From a bacterium (GTDB lineage Bacteria; Bacillota_I; Bacilli_A; RF39; UBA660), in the NCBI GenBank assembly GCA_004560915.1, contig SFTR01000011.1, positions 1 to 14,565 of the forward strand: 14,565 nt of DNA, written 5' to 3'. A program made the position numbers and the translations under genes. Positions 2,705 to 12,252 of this stretch are shown in pieces. A model generated the notes under the pieces. The model was given only the letters and a program-made list of their open reading frames with translations, was not told the origin of the DNA and ran no database searches. Each line of letters starts with the position of its first letter. The stretch's first letter is position 1.

Positions 2705-5221
2705 ATGATGCAAAAGATAATTGATTATTTTAAACAATATATAGGTGTAATTTCTATAGTACTAGCAGTATGTATTCTTCTTACATATAGTCTTTCATAC
2801 TTCGTTACAAATAGTGATAACCATAGAGCAGCTGAAATGTATGTAGGAGAACTTAAGTATTCAATGACTATCGAAGGGAATAGTACAAATACATTAAGTG
2901 TACCAGCAGGTGAAACTATTGTTGATATAAATGTAACTAATCAAAATGAAATAAATACATATTTCAAATTATTATATTTAAAGAATAGTAATGTAACAAT
3001 TTCATATTATGATGAAACAAAAGATACAGGTGAGGTTTATACTAAGTATTTATCTTCAGGAGAATTATTAGAAAAGGGTATTACTGGTACTTTAAAATTA
3101 AAAATAATTAATAATTCTAGTAGTGCACAAACTCTTACTTTTTCAGTAAGTGGAGGTTATAGTACTAATAAACTCACTGATGTAGATGTACCAAGTACAT
3201 ATTCTGAAATTACTACAATGGAGACTACATCTTCAAATACATATTTTTGTAAAACTGGGAATACTCTTAGTCAAGGATTAAAATATATTGACGAACAATA
3301 TACATATTCATATAAACAACAAGGCTCTTCTAATTCTGGTACTGCATTAAGTTGGGCAAATATAACAACTAATGGTTGGGGTGTACAACTTACTAATAAA
3401 GCAAGTACAAATACTGTAAATAGCAAACTATGTACTTATATAAATAATAAACCTACTATCTCCATGACATATATGTTTTCTAATAGTAAAGCATCTTCTA
3501 TAGATGTAAGTGGTTTTGATACTAGTTATGTAATTGACATGAATAACATGTTTGCAAGTTCACAGGCTACAACTATAAGCGGATTAAATAATTTTAATAC
3601 AAGTAATGTAACTAATATGCGTTATATGTTTAATACCAGTAAAGTTACTACATTAGATTTAAGTAACTTTAATACAAGTAAAGTAACAAATATGAGTAGT
3701 ATGTTTAAGCAATCAAGTGCTACTACAATAAATGTAAGTAATTTTAACACAACTAAAGTAACTGATATGCATAATATGTTTGCAAGTTCACAGGCTACAA
3801 CTATAAACGGATTAAATAATTTTAATACAAGTAATGTAACTAATATGAATAGTATGTTTTATAGTTCTAAAGCACCAGCATTAGATGTAAGTGGCTTTAA
3901 CACTGCTAAAGTAACTGATATGGGCTTTATGTTTCAAGAAAGTAAATCAACAACTTTAAACGTAAGCAAATTTAATACAAGTAATGTAACTAATATGGGT
4001 TATATGTTTAGTTCTACTCAAGTATCTACATTAGATATAAGTAGTTTTAATACAAGCAAAGTTACAAGTATGGAAGGTATGTTTTGGAATAGTAAAGTAA
4101 CTACGATAAAAGGATTAAATAAATTAAACACAAGCAAAGTAACAACTATGAAAGCAATGTTTAAAAGTACTAATTTAACTACATTAGATTTAAGTAGTTT
4201 TAATACAAGTAATGTAACCGACATGGAAGGTATGTTTAATCCTTGCACGAGTTTAACAACATTAGATTTAAGTACTTTTAATACAAGCAAAGTAACTAAT
4301 ATGTCTTATATGTTTAATGGTTCTACGAGCTTAAATACAATATATGTAAGTGATAAATTTGTGACTACAGCAGTTACATCATCAACAAGTATGTTTGGTA
4401 ATATGCCTAAATTAGTAGGTGGAAACGGAACTAAATACAATAGTTCTTATGTTAATAAAACATATGCTAGAATAGATGGTGGAACAAGTAACCCAGGATA
4501 CTTTACTGATATTGCTGATAAACCTAAAGAACCGGAATCTTTTGCTACTGATTCGTGGAAAACAATAATAAATGCAGTTAAAAATAATAATATAAGTAAA
4601 TACAATATAGGAGATACCAAGACAGTAGATATGGGAACGTATGGGACACATACACTACGTATAGCAAATACATCAACTCCAAACGAATGTTCAAGGGCAG
4701 GTTTCTCACAAACAGCATGTGGATTTGTGTTAGAGTTTGCAGATATAATAACAACACATAAAATGAATGATACTGCTACAAATGTAGGAGGATGGCCAGC
4801 AACAAGCATGAGAACATTTGTAAATAATAATATATATAATGCAATACCAAGTGAAATAAAGAATGCAATAATAGATACAACAGTAGTATCAGGACATGGA
4901 AAAAGTGATACAGAAAACTTCACATCAACAGATAAAATATATTTTTTAGCCCCAGGAGAAGTATTTACTGATTGGAATACTAATAGCATATCTTCATATG
5001 ATACAGCAAAAGATTTAACAAGAACATTAGATTATTATACAAGTATAGGAGTAACAATTAATAATAAAAGTGGAGCAATAAAGAGTGGTAAGTTTTGGTG
5101 GTTTCGCGCGGCTTATTTCTCTAGTACTGTCAGTTTCTACATTGTGAGTAGCAGTGGTAACAACAGTTTCGATTCTGCTACTGATACATACGGAGTTGCG
5201 CCAGCTTTCCGTATCGGATAG
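2705..5221 (+). CDS. BspA-like leucine-rich-repeat surface protein with C-type-lectin-like (DUF6273-like) C-terminus
   Basis: 838 residues if the first of two adjacent ATG codons is used. The second (2708) has better spacing, seven bases, from the AGG of AGGTGAT. Order of parts: cytoplasmic stub; membrane helix ~12-34 (signal anchor); beta-rich region ~45-150 resembling TasA/camelysin-type modules, starting YVGELKYSM; a linker; then about 12 BspA-type repeats at ~253-560 of the form LDLSxFNTSxVTxMxxMF, 25-26 residues each; and a globular domain ~613-838 ending FWWFR (797-801) ... GVAPAFRIG (830-838). That ending is typical of DUF6273 domains, which have a formylglycine-enzyme/C-type-lectin fold. 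There is no LPXTG, so anchoring is probably by the N-terminal helix. BspA repeats are known in adhesins of host-associated bacteria; a binding role here is inference. The 3' end has foreign-looking base composition (see variable-region entry). Confidence 0.88.
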   Translation: MMQKIIDYFKQYIGVISIVLAVCILLTYSLSYFVTNSDNHRAAEMYVGELKYSMTIEGNSTNTLSVPAGETIVDINVTNQNEINTYFKLLYLKNSNVTISYYDETKDTGEVYTKYLSSGELLEKGITGTLKLKIINNSSSAQTLTFSVSGGYSTNKLTDVDVPSTYSEITTMETTSSNTYFCKTGNTLSQGLKYIDEQYTYSYKQQGSSNSGTALSWANITTNGWGVQLTNKASTNTVNSKLCTYINNKPTISMTYMFSNSKASSIDVSGFDTSYVIDMNNMFASSQATTISGLNNFNTSNVTNMRYMFNTSKVTTLDLSNFNTSKVTNMSSMFKQSSATTINVSNFNTTKVTDMHNMFASSQATTINGLNNFNTSNVTNMNSMFYSSKAPALDVSGFNTAKVTDMGFMFQESKSTTLNVSKFNTSNVTNMGYMFSSTQVSTLDISSFNTSKVTSMEGMFWNSKVTTIKGLNKLNTSKVTTMKAMFKSTNLTTLDLSSFNTSNVTDMEGMFNPCTSLTTLDLSTFNTSKVTNMSYMFNGSTSLNTIYVSDKFVTTAVTSSTSMFGNMPKLVGGNGTKYNSSYVNKTYARIDGGTSNPGYFTDIADKPKEPESFATDSWKTIINAVKNNNISKYNIGDTKTVDMGTYGTHTLRIANTSTPNECSRAGFSQTACGFVLEFADIITTHKMNDTATNVGGWPATSMRTFVNNNIYNAIPSEIKNAIIDTTVVSGHGKSDTENFTSTDKIYFLAPGEVFTDWNTNSISSYDTAKDLTRTLDYYTSIGVTINNKSGAIKSGKFWWFRAAYFSSTVSFYIVSSSGNNSFDSATDTYGVAPAFRIG
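3461..4370 (+). repeat. Array of BspA-type (DUF285) leucine-rich repeats, 75-78 bp units
   Basis: About 12 in-frame units encode L-D/N-x-S-x-F-N-T-S-x-V-T-x-M-x-x-M-F plus a Ser/Thr-rich tail. Inside the array, 3548-3619 and 3776-3847 are two 72-bp copies that differ at one base (AGC versus AAC), exactly 228 bp (three units) apart. Other units differ far more, so this pair is a recent duplication or gene-conversion event. Confidence 0.85.
5093..5221 (+). other. Candidate diversified (DGR-type) variable region at the 3' end of the surface gene
   Basis: From the FWW codons to the stop, the composition shifts sharply. I count 58 G/C in 126 bases (5096-5221, 46%) versus 29 in the preceding 115 (25%). 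Of the 30 codons for residues 800-829, 27 end in T or C, against 11 of 30 just before. The encoded stretch runs F-R-A-A-Y-F-S-S-T-V-S-F and later S-S-S-G-N-N-S-F-D-S-A-T-D. It sits between the constant FWW and GVAPAFRI motifs, where C-type-lectin-fold targets of diversity-generating retroelements vary. AAY template codons randomised at A would give NNY codons and raised GC. The reverse transcriptase and template are not in this window, so active diversification is not shown. Confidence 0.5.
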
Positions 5222-9528: not shown

Positions 9529-9933
9529 ATGAAATATTTAAAATTTACATTATTCATGTTTATTGTTTGCTTAATGATGTCATATGCAAACATGAACGCA
9601 AGAGAAGTTACAGGAGTATCGGGATTTGAAATTAAAGCATATCAAATTGAAACAAGTTTAGGTGATTATGTTACCAAAAGTGAAAATTTTACGAATCATA
9701 CATATCAAAATATTGGAACAGTAAAATTGTATGGTTCCGGAGAATATACAAATGTGTTAGTTAAAATATGTAATAATAATGGGAAATGCACTAAATATAA
9801 AGAGTTTACTACAAATCAAAAACAAAATTATGATGAATCAGAGGCATCATTAAAAGGAAAATATACACTAAAGTTCAAGAATCCAAAATTCACAGCTTAT
9901 AGACTGAGTCACTCTGGAGTTTGGACATATTAA
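9529..9933 (+). CDS. Small secreted protein, possible peptide precursor of the adjacent ABC system
   Basis: 134 residues; I do not recognise the family. A signal peptide covers ~1-24 (hydrophobic FTLFMFIVCLMMSYA, then NMNA as likely cleavage site). The mature ~110 residues look beta-strand-rich and contain two cysteines, C81 and C87, in ICNNNGKCTKY, spaced for a small disulfide loop. The C-terminus is SHSGVWTY. The start has a near-consensus ribosome binding site AGGAGGA six bases upstream, the strongest among the operon genes. Codons such as TTG, TCC, CAT and GTG appear more often than in neighbours. It is first in an operon with a three-part LanFEG-like ABC transporter and is bracketed by a 17-bp inverted repeat. 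A bacteriocin-like or sensed/exported peptide is a reasonable guess. It lacks a double-glycine leader and does not look like lactococcin 972. Confidence 0.8.
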   Translation: MKYLKFTLFMFIVCLMMSYANMNAREVTGVSGFEIKAYQIETSLGDYVTKSENFTNHTYQNIGTVKLYGSGEYTNVLVKICNNNGKCTKYKEFTTNQKQNYDESEASLKGKYTLKFKNPKFTAYRLSHSGVWTY

Positions 9934-9977: not shown

Positions 9978-10862
9978 ATGAAAAAGTTTATTCAAAATAA
10001 CAAGGTTTTACTTATATCATTCATGATATTATTCATGTTTACAACATTTCTAGGTATTAAAGTAATTATTAATGATAAAGATTCAGAAGATTTAAGTATA
10101 AAAGTAAAAGAAATGTGTAAAGAAACTTTAAAGACTGATCCCACTAATGAAATATGTTTAAAAGCACTAAATGAAGAAAAAACAAAAAGAGATACACTAA
10201 CTACTTTTAATGAAATACTTAATGATTCAGAATATAGTTTTATATATTTTTTAGCAGTACCATTCTTAATAATTATGTCATCAATGTATGAAATAAGTAA
10301 AAGATTTAAATCAGGTGAAATAAAGAATAGGCTAACTAGAGAAAGTTATAATAATTATATAAAAGATGTATTTAAAAGTTCATATAAAAGTATTCTTTTG
10401 TGGCCACTAATAACTATGTATGTTTTAGTATTTTCCTACATAATAAGTGGAACATTTGAAGTATCTGCTGAAACTATAGCATTCACTAAAGAAATACTTA
10501 GTCATCCAGCACTATTTATATTTTCATATTTGTTAAATACAATATTAATGAGTATCTTCTATATAAATATAGGATTAATCTTAGTACCAGAGAATAGAAA
10601 CTATTTAGTAACAGTAATAGAAACTATTATGGTATATTATGGTATAACATTAACAAATACATTCTTTATAATAAGTTTTGTCTTAAAAGACTTTAAAGAC
10701 TCGGAAAAATACTTTGACTTCTTTGATATGTATACTTACAATGATAGGGAACTTATACCATTTAATTTATTATGTCTAGGAGTATCACTCATAAGTTCGC
10801 TACTAGTATATTTAAAATATAAAAACAAAGAAAAAATAATAATAAAATTAGAAAAGAATTAG
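9978..10862 (+). CDS. ABC-2-like permease subunit of the accessory transporter (six membrane segments)
   Basis: 294 residues, no family I can name with certainty. A first membrane segment (~10-30) is followed by a ~55-residue hydrophilic loop holding two cysteines (C47, C60), then five more segments (~86-104, 139-158, 178-200, 207-232, 264-287) and a basic tail. One helix, a large outer loop, then five helices is the usual ABC-2-type permease arrangement. It lies between the secreted peptide and the ATPase, and its TAG stop (10860-10862) overlaps the ATPase ribosome binding site AGAGG. A ribosome binding site AGGAGA stands five bases before the start. By position and topology it corresponds to a LanE/LanG-type subunit. 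Direct sequence similarity cannot be judged here. Confidence 0.75.
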   Translation: MKKFIQNNKVLLISFMILFMFTTFLGIKVIINDKDSEDLSIKVKEMCKETLKTDPTNEICLKALNEEKTKRDTLTTFNEILNDSEYSFIYFLAVPFLIIMSSMYEISKRFKSGEIKNRLTRESYNNYIKDVFKSSYKSILLWPLITMYVLVFSYIISGTFEVSAETIAFTKEILSHPALFIFSYLLNTILMSIFYINIGLILVPENRNYLVTVIETIMVYYGITLTNTFFIISFVLKDFKDSEKYFDFFDMYTYNDRELIPFNLLCLGVSLISSLLVYLKYKNKEKIIIKLEKN

Positions 10863-10870
10863 AGGTTAAT

Positions 10871-11506
10871 ATGGAAATAATAGTTAAAGCTTTATCAAAA
10901 AAATTTAAAAAAGTAACTATACTAGAAAACATAAATATGAAATTTGAAAGTGGAAAAATATATGGTATAGTCGGAAGAAATGGTAGTGGTAAAAGTGTAT
11001 TCTTAAAAATACTTTGTTCATTTTATAAACCAACAACTGGAGAAGTACTTTATGGTAATATAAATTACAATAGTAATAATAGTTTTCCTCCAAGTGTAAG
11101 AGCTCTAATAGAAAAACCAACTTTCTTTCCGGATTTAACTGGTTATGAAAACTTAAAGTTACTAGCAAGCATACAAAATAAAATAGGGAACGAAGAAATA
11201 AATAAAACACTTGAATTAGTAAACCTAACTACTGAGAAAAATAAAAAATATAGTGAATACTCACTAGGTACTAAACAAAAACTAGCTATCGCACAAGTAT
11301 TAATGGAGAGTCCTGACGTGATGATATTTGATGAACTATTTAATGGAATAGAAGAGTCCACAGTAGAAAAGATAAGAAATATTTTATTAGATTTAAAAAA
11401 CCAAAATAAACTAATTATAGTTACAAGTCATATAAAAGAAGATATAGATGTTTTATCAGATGAAGTATATAAATTTGATAATGGTCATGTGGAACGTATA
11501 AAATGA
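10871..11506 (+). CDS. ABC transporter ATPase, LanF/BcrA-like with Glu in the Q-loop
   Basis: 211 residues, a single short ATPase domain for a multi-subunit transporter. Walker A is GRNGSGKS (35-42). At the position of the Q-loop glutamine the sequence is RALIEKPTFFPDLTGYENL, with E81. This E-loop is described for LanFEG lantibiotic-immunity ATPases and is seen in BcrA-like proteins. The signature is degenerate, YSLGTKQKL (130-138) instead of LSGGQ, again typical of this branch. Walker B is VMIFDE (150-155) and the H-loop His is 187 (VTSH). The D-loop region reads LFNGIEE rather than the usual TNGLDP. It overlaps the next permease by ATGA (11503-11506), so the two are translated coupled. Role: powering export or removal of a membrane-active peptide, by inference. 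The gene ends in TGA, confirming standard stop usage. Confidence 0.9.
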   Translation: MEIIVKALSKKFKKVTILENINMKFESGKIYGIVGRNGSGKSVFLKILCSFYKPTTGEVLYGNINYNSNNSFPPSVRALIEKPTFFPDLTGYENLKLLASIQNKIGNEEINKTLELVNLTTEKNKKYSEYSLGTKQKLAIAQVLMESPDVMIFDELFNGIEESTVEKIRNILLDLKNQNKLIIVTSHIKEDIDVLSDEVYKFDNGHVERIK

Positions 11507-12252
11507 AAAACGATTTTAAATTAATAATATCACTATTACAAAATACTAGATTCAAAGTTACAACCATGATAATTATTCTATTATTCTTTATGTCTCTTGG
11601 AAACATAATAAACAACATGACTATGATAAATGGTATATATAGTACATTATCTTGGAACTTTTTTATAATGGTTTTACTATTTCTATTTATCTTTAATACT
11701 TATAATATCTATATTGAGTTAGTTAAAAATTATTCATTTTTAATAAGAATAAAAAACTACAAAGAATTCTTTTGTAAAATTATAAAGTTTATATTTATAT
11801 CAAACTTAATAATTTATCTAATAGTATTATTTTTAGTACTAGTTGCATCTATTTTAAAAACAGGTATGAATACAAAAATAGAAATACTAAATAATTATAA
11901 CATTACTAATCTTACATACTTAATATTTCATATAATAAGAAGTTATTTCATATTAAATATGATTGTCATTATATTAGTTAGTTTATACAAAACGATTAAA
12001 GAAGAAATAGTTGTAATCATTTCTGGAATTATACCGCTTAGCATAGTTGCGTTAACGCCACTTATGAAAGAAAGAGTAATAGACTCAGTATTTAAGTTAC
12101 CTTTATATTATGGAGATTATTTTATAGGCAATAGTTATACTACTTTTACATTTGAAGTATGTATGTCTATTTTATTCATATCTATATTATTTTTAATAAC
12201 TAAAATACTAATAGAAATAGTTTCCAAAAAGAGCATAGATTTAGGGTTTTAG
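11503..12252 (+). CDS. Second permease subunit of the accessory ABC transporter
   Basis: 249 residues, almost entirely membrane: segments at about 20-37, 52-70, 90-118, 145-162, 167-184 and 219-240. No family motif is recognised. Its start overlaps the ATPase stop (ATGA), so it is certainly expressed with it. One ATPase plus two different ~250-290-residue six-helix permeases matches the LanF-LanE-LanG composition, although in that group the ATPase gene usually comes first, whereas here it lies between the permeases. The gene is closed by the terminator at 12282-12333. It keeps the very low GC and AGA/CTA/ATA-rich codon use of the region. Confidence 0.78.
   Translation: MKNDFKLIISLLQNTRFKVTTMIIILLFFMSLGNIINNMTMINGIYSTLSWNFFIMVLLFLFIFNTYNIYIELVKNYSFLIRIKNYKEFFCKIIKFIFISNLIIYLIVLFLVLVASILKTGMNTKIEILNNYNITNLTYLIFHIIRSYFILNMIVIILVSLYKTIKEEIVVIISGIIPLSIVALTPLMKERVIDSVFKLPLYYGDYFIGNSYTTFTFEVCMSILFISILFLITKILIEIVSKKSIDLGF

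Follow-up and report, generated by a model that had tools for sequence, protein, structure and literature searches.

Among the closest described systems, the diversity-generating retroelement (DGR) of Treponema denticola has remote targets, and its target genes are left in strains without a reverse transcriptase (RT) or template repeat (TR), according to the part of the published account that we consulted (PMC4891356). The system described here resembles it, as far as that part goes, in having several unlinked targets, in variable regions (VRs) that differ from the TR mostly at A, and in the persistence of VR genes where no DGR core was found. Unlike in T. denticola, where the same source gives predicted lipoprotein signals for 62% of targets, our target is a PARCEL-repeat protein with a DUF6273 domain, from another bacterial group; and no core was seen for the species of our window, the whole 14,565-nt stretch of DNA analysed here. 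Variable protein 1 of T. denticola has a solved structure (2y3c). DUF6273 targets of phage DGRs—tentaclins (PMC10743442) and proteins of Faecalibacterium prophages (PMC11792537)—share the Pfam domain with our protein, the VR being a surface hairpin or lying at the DUF6273 C-terminus in the excerpts consulted. These are phage proteins, whereas the gene neighbours in the window look chromosomal (der, a TlyA-like gene, rpsL, rpsG, and fusA, the last three named from reading and not from a profile match), and no phage gene was noticed among them. PARCEL/BspA-like surface proteins (TIGR02167, DUF285; PMC2996958, consulted in part) have a repeat array as in the window's protein, in which, by contrast, a variable domain of DGR type comes after the array. 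In the literature searched, to which most subscription journals do not belong, no paper joined 'diversity-generating retroelement' with 'BspA' or 'RF39', and papers on DGRs and 'leucine-rich repeat' held nothing on such proteins, judging by titles and the starts of abstracts. Hence, DUF6273 as a phage DGR target, remote targets, and core-less targets are known; what the window adds is the combination of PARCEL array and DUF6273, with a VR that in these Bacilli is probably both orphan and frozen.

The gene in question (2705..5221, plus strand, as are all its features below) encodes an 838-residue surface protein with matches to PF03382, PF19789, and TIGR02167. An N-terminal hydrophobic segment (residues ~13–33; 2741..2803), read from the sequence and probably a membrane anchor, is followed by a PARCEL/DUF285 array (about residues 245–580; 3437..4444; PF03382, TIGR02167) of 13 MF-containing units of 25–27 residues each, and then by the C-terminal DUF6273 domain (4535..5218). 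The PARCEL repeat scored 238.2 bits (TIGR02167; cut-off 30) over ten stretches, and DUF6273 was matched at residues 684–837 (PF19789; E = 1.1e-13, 51.9 bits, gathering score 23.5). A structure model of residues 595–838 with a pLDDT of 95 predicts a C-type-lectin-like fold, in agreement with an earlier note that had proposed such a domain from the sequence; an initial model, built on 18 sequences, reached a pLDDT of just 56 and was discarded, and Foldseek by itself returned a single PDB match at E ≤ 0.001. Searching for proteins similar to residues 595–838 gave 3950 matches, and 43 of the 120 proteins listed from these carry both PF03382 and PF19789.

The end of the gene stands out in composition. 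As the earlier note had stated, GC content jumps to 46.0% (5096–5221) from 25.2% in the preceding 115 bases, and every listed top 126-base GC window of the stretch starts at 5085–5105. Its count of 27 NNY codons among the 30 at residues 800–829 was likewise reproduced and is the highest 30-codon count of the gene (the maxima of six other genes in the window range from 18 to 25), but the upstream comparison stretch, codons 770–799, holds 12 such codons rather than 11. The segment lies where it had been placed, between a WW pair (5096..5101), invariant in both alignments that we made, and GVAPAFRIG, inside the DUF6273 domain. The VR does sit at the gene end, shortly downstream of the WW pair, but it does not fill 5093–5221 as had been proposed: alignment to 102-base TRs of related genomes delimits a core of 34 codons at 5108..5209. 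A 3′ anchor, GCGCCAGCTTTCCG (5198..5211), is common to the VRs of relatives, and the TRs of G331, G080, G087, G360, and G530 read CCAGATTTCTG opposite it; we take the two to be a possible, putative IMH/IMH* pair. Codons 819–820 are AAC AAC, as described, and might be untouched template, a reading to be weighed against the GAT TGG that stands opposite them in the TRs of G331, G080, G087, G360, G211, and G506, and the AAT AGG in that of G530. The VR 3′ end does not recur anywhere in the 14,565-nt window, even as a near-copy; viral contigs held no exact 29-base match to the VR, and neither a protein search nor a profile found relatives of the VR-bearing domain in them.

DGRs of the DUF6273 type do occur in related genomes, where they run from the variable protein through the accessory protein, TR, and RT-2 RNA to the RT. 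We read this order, accessory gene included, in G331 (L118), G080 (L119), and G530 (L191), and VR, TR, and RT in G360 (L164); in G087 (L121), G211 (L189), and G506 (L190), the contig takes in less than the full variable gene. Two RTs appear incomplete: that of G360 matches within its open frame only up to residue 255 of 365, and that of G530 over residues 6–240 of 365. Every TR is A-rich with AAC/AAT (AAY) codons, for example AATTCTAATAATACTAACAATTTCTACAATGTG in G080. When TR and VR of the same locus were compared, mismatches fell on template A at 20 of 38 sites versus 0 of 58 at other bases in G080 (p = 1.6e-10), 14 of 34 versus 0 of 62 in G360 (p = 5.8e-8), 19 of 41 versus 0 of 55 in G530 (p = 4.4e-9), and 15 of 36 versus 2 of 60 in G331 (p = 3.3e-6), the last pair aligned with a gap because a one-codon indel removes the signal from the ungapped comparison. 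More generally, VRs compared with the TR of their own genome showed an excess of A mismatches (p < 0.05) in 12 of 14 cases; the exceptions, not significant, were L124 (p = 0.50) and L131-2441 (p = 0.07), the latter—like L125—being one codon longer than the TR, yet scored ungapped. In G080, VRs on other contigs carry the footprint of the single TR, with mismatches at 24 of 38 A versus 2 of 58 other bases in L131-1559, 18 of 38 versus 5 of 58 in L127-1533, and 23 of 38 versus 12 of 58 in L130. Eight VRs were scored in this genome, including two in L129 that are near-copies of each other; the longer L127 VR (position 3114) and the L126 pattern match were left out. One-mismatch TR-pattern matches in G297, G392, and G087:C14 were not counted as TRs.

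The RTs of these DGRs match PHROG 1423 (phrog_1423, reverse transcriptase) and bear the motif LG.EIAQ, read from the sequences, as against LGN.TSQ or IGAMTSQ in other RTs of these genomes. For the accessory protein, Pfam, NCBIfam, and PHROGs gave no function (PHROG 30516, unknown). The RT-2 RNA (Rfam RF03077), which may be the spacer part of the DGR template RNA, lies between TR and RT and partly overlaps the start of the RT open frame (L118:2335-2521, L119:5322-5515, L121:5315-5438, L191:2638-2828, L194:893-1107); the window, unlike these DGRs, contains none. An 18-mer of this RNA, GGACGCTTCTTGCATGGT, was found exactly in 51 IMG/VR stretches, and the one of these that we read (L194) shows the tail of a variable protein, a small gene, TR, RNA, and RT in series. 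Eight of the 56 genomes searched possess the RNA, and none of 18 in the genus of G297, under filters that were stricter in this search than in others. Two-mismatch matches to the 18-mer in G001 and G071 were dismissed as DGR remnants: they precede a hisS-like gene in what we take to be a T-box-like leader, which they resemble.

Several further loci deserve mention. In L118 (G331:C32), the segment with variable-protein and accessory genes is present twice, identical at all 1890 of 1890 bases compared, and the two copies flank the RT and a transposase-like gene, as in a tandem copy, a circle, or an effect of assembly. A second DGR-like RT type (motifs LGN.TSQ/IGAMTSQ) was encountered in L132, L133, and L134, from genomes G002 and G004, which also carry DUF6273 VRs; near the RT of L132 lies a protein with a different tail, GVRPAVSL, and that of L133 is split over two frames. 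In L192 (G069:C54), an RT of the DGR core is interrupted by one TAG and one TAA and adjoins an RT-2 RNA match above the cut-off; from its sequence, this appears to be a DGR core in decay.

We compared the VR of the window with six TRs, all from other genomes and its own TR not among them; since these TRs are related to each other, the six tests are not independent. Mismatches were in excess at template A with p < 0.05 in five of six comparisons, led by the G080 TR (21 of 38 A versus 13 of 58 other bases, p = 1.1e-3) and followed by those of G530 (22 of 41 versus 14 of 55, p = 4.5e-3), G331 (p = 7.5e-3), G087 (p = 0.012), and G211 (p = 0.043), with G360 at p = 0.06. Sixteen of the 34 codons of the VR core match AAY positions of the G080 TR, and there mismatches number 8, 12, and 2 at codon positions 1, 2, and 3 (p = 1.1e-3); all 16 window codons at these sites end in T or C (p = 2.5e-5, given the NNY rate of codons 1–799). 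The same asymmetry emerged when 15 homologs were each compared with the window and pooled: at AAY codons, mismatch rates were 0.62/0.69/0.27 at positions 1/2/3, as against 0.26/0.26/0.36 in the rest of the domain (p = 1.5e-21 for the difference, the pairs not being independent). The VRs of relatives have in common a set of constant bases between which NNC/NNT codons are placed.

Relatives came in part from a scan of public genomes, which yielded 20 loci in MAGs labelled Bacilli, Erysipelotrichaceae, or Bacillales bacterium, most genomes having several. Alignment A1 holds 17 of the 20 (L007 and L009, with an in-frame stop before the VR, and the partial L020 were left out), and alignment A2, of 60 sequences, adds the window and 42 proteins hand-picked from the 120 listed. 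Across A2, the 25 most variable of the 244 positions include every one of the 16 AAY codons in the G080 TR (p = 4.5e-19); the coincidence persisted inside the VR alone (p = 8.8e-7) and, for 14 of 16 codons, when only the 42 proteins were used (p = 2.3e-14). Sixteen homologs that are 70–90% alike outside the VR had a mean identity to the window of 0.80 there, as against 0.21 for the AAY codons and 0.69 for the remaining codons of the VR. These results fit a DGR and no ordinary mode of protein evolution familiar to us. Because DGRs with this very domain exist in related genomes and the window bears the AAY-codon footprint, we take its VR to be a DGR variable region by descent, and the adenine-directed origin proposed in the earlier note is supported. 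Around L007:5690 and L009:4853, an in-frame TAA stands a little ahead of the VR in the same DUF6273 gene, so that in these MAGs the VR is cut off from the protein.

To place the window, we compared rpsL-rpsG-fusA DNA with 385 genomes drawn from the order to which it seems to belong, among which G297 and G131 were nearest (80%). The best DNA match to the window's domain in the 385 genomes was 81%, over part of the domain, and the best long match in the 18 genomes of G297's genus 74–75%; neither set showed a member of the window's own species. A strict VR 3′ pattern was present in 24 of 386 family genomes and the RT clade (55–100% identity) in eight of 386; the two coincide in five of the 24 (p = 3.0e-5), leaving 19 of 24 VR-pattern genomes without a matching RT clade, and the RT and RT-2 absences may partly reflect incompleteness of the MAGs, which came without completeness values. 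It follows that a search confined to the surroundings of RTs would overlook many surface proteins of DGR shape in the lineage. Within G297's genus, G392 has eight matches to the domain—five VR tails were read—and no RT-2 RNA, and seven of the 18 genomes have RTs of some kind.

Close alleles bear on whether such a region is still being rewritten. Thirteen close proteins, the window's included and hand-picked from the 120 listed of 3950 matches, hold four VR versions. Five of the 12 others have a VR identical to that of the window (P0011, P0012, P0014, P0021, and P0057) and differ from it at 4, 5, 5, 8, and 21 of 188 other positions. This speaks against the hypervariable tip of the earlier note as a present state; in favour of such a tip, five alleles (P0016–P0020) differ from the window at five of 16 AAY codons, at none of 18 other VR codons, and at 6–7 of 188 positions elsewhere (p = 5e-4 to 9e-4), differences that could stem from recent DGR action. 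P0015 departs at two of 16 AAY and one of 18 other VR codons, and P0062 has one VR change alongside 28 other differences. Of the 21 differences that P0057 has outside the VR, 17 fall at residues 614–643, and in both P0057 and P0062 most precede residue 645, so that their VR-bearing part may be a recent exchange; the identical VR of P0057 therefore says little about stability. Changes thus favour the A codons, but the two commonest versions share 11 of 16 AAY residues, and the versions overall at least 11 of 16, which is not what independent fresh copying would yield. Beyond these proteins, seven other ortholog groups—from a protein set clustered at 90%, which may hide VR variants—had a VR less variable than the rest in five cases (B, D, E, G, and H), no variation at all in one (F), and a more variable VR in one (C; P0093 and kin versus P0113, 5 of 40 versus 13 of 206). 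P0074 and P0075, whose VRs are identical, are set apart by a single 25-residue repeat plus one residue. On these sequences, hypervariability now is not supported, and the region could still be subject to some activity.

We consider it reasonably probable that the window carries a DGR variable region that is orphan and largely frozen. In the past, a DGR RT would have used a template rich in AAY codons to rewrite the 3′ end of the DUF6273 gene, putting random bases at A and so new residues into the strands and loops of the C-type-lectin-like domain, which would present a presumptive ligand-binding face at the end of the PARCEL-repeat protein opposite its probable N-terminal anchor. In this lineage, the VR would now apparently be passed on for the most part as an unchanging cassette, which may have moved between genes that differ in their repeat arrays, and the DGR core would probably be absent or act rarely. 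A DGR active in trans offers another account, doubtful in our judgement though by no means negligible: an intact core elsewhere in the genome or on a resident phage would still rewrite the VR, and alleles would be shared because they parted only recently or because selection favours a single variant. Such action at a distance has its precedent in the G080 TR that alone accounts for VRs on other contigs, and it would suit both the AAY preference of the P0016–P0020 differences and the VR of P0113, which diverges from its orthologs more than the remainder does; signs of recent activity are given for 50–75% of DGRs, in all groups, in the part of PMC8144416 consulted. It sits poorly with the VRs shared unchanged by five alleles, the 11 AAY residues common to the two commonest versions, the lack of RT-2 RNA in all 18 genomes of G297's genus, and mismatches between window and foreign TRs at non-A bases that are not rare (13–23 of 55–62).

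The remaining explanations dispense with a retroelement at this site. Same-domain DGRs with a near-copy TR mismatched only or nearly only at A, third bases kept where first and second bases of AAY codons have changed, and the 16-of-16 coincidence of variable positions with a foreign TR already strongly disfavour the view that ordinary point mutation and selection diversified a lectin-like domain in which no retroelement ever acted. Positive selection can act on the variable surface loops of lectins, and two allele changes fall outside the DGR pattern—Y812H lies at a non-A template position, and D823E requires a third-base change of an AAY codon—yet we regard this history as very improbable. 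Still closer to negligible, in our estimate, is the idea that horizontal transfer or gene conversion brought in a cassette of higher GC content, whose GC and NNY skew would reflect nothing but the composition of its source. The earlier note had named cassette exchange with a sister gene as a sign against its reading, and at the protein level such exchange is indeed suggested by P0012, P0057, and P0062, in which the VR-bearing C-terminal part is common to proteins with different arrays. Exchange accounts for spread, however, and leaves the A-codon footprint unexplained; moreover, GC is similar in the VRs of relatives (0.40–0.51 among those listed).

Returning to an orphan, largely frozen VR, the window illustrates that a DGR product can be recognised from codon-position asymmetry and foreign templates alone, and raises the question of whether orphan VRs are retained because of the binding specificity that the DGR last gave them. 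As a tentative generalisation, which we consider less likely than not, small-genome Bacilli may keep VR-capped surface proteins written by a DGR since lost or rarely visiting, and reuse the tips as cassettes between PARCEL arrays. If so, the array would change by recombination while the DGR-made specificity is inherited, as a memory of past hypermutation and not as diversity still being generated.

Elsewhere in the window, two proteins without a Pfam match (9529-9933 and 9978-10862) precede an ABC-ATPase-like and a membrane protein (10871-12252), possibly together an ABC-2-type export set.
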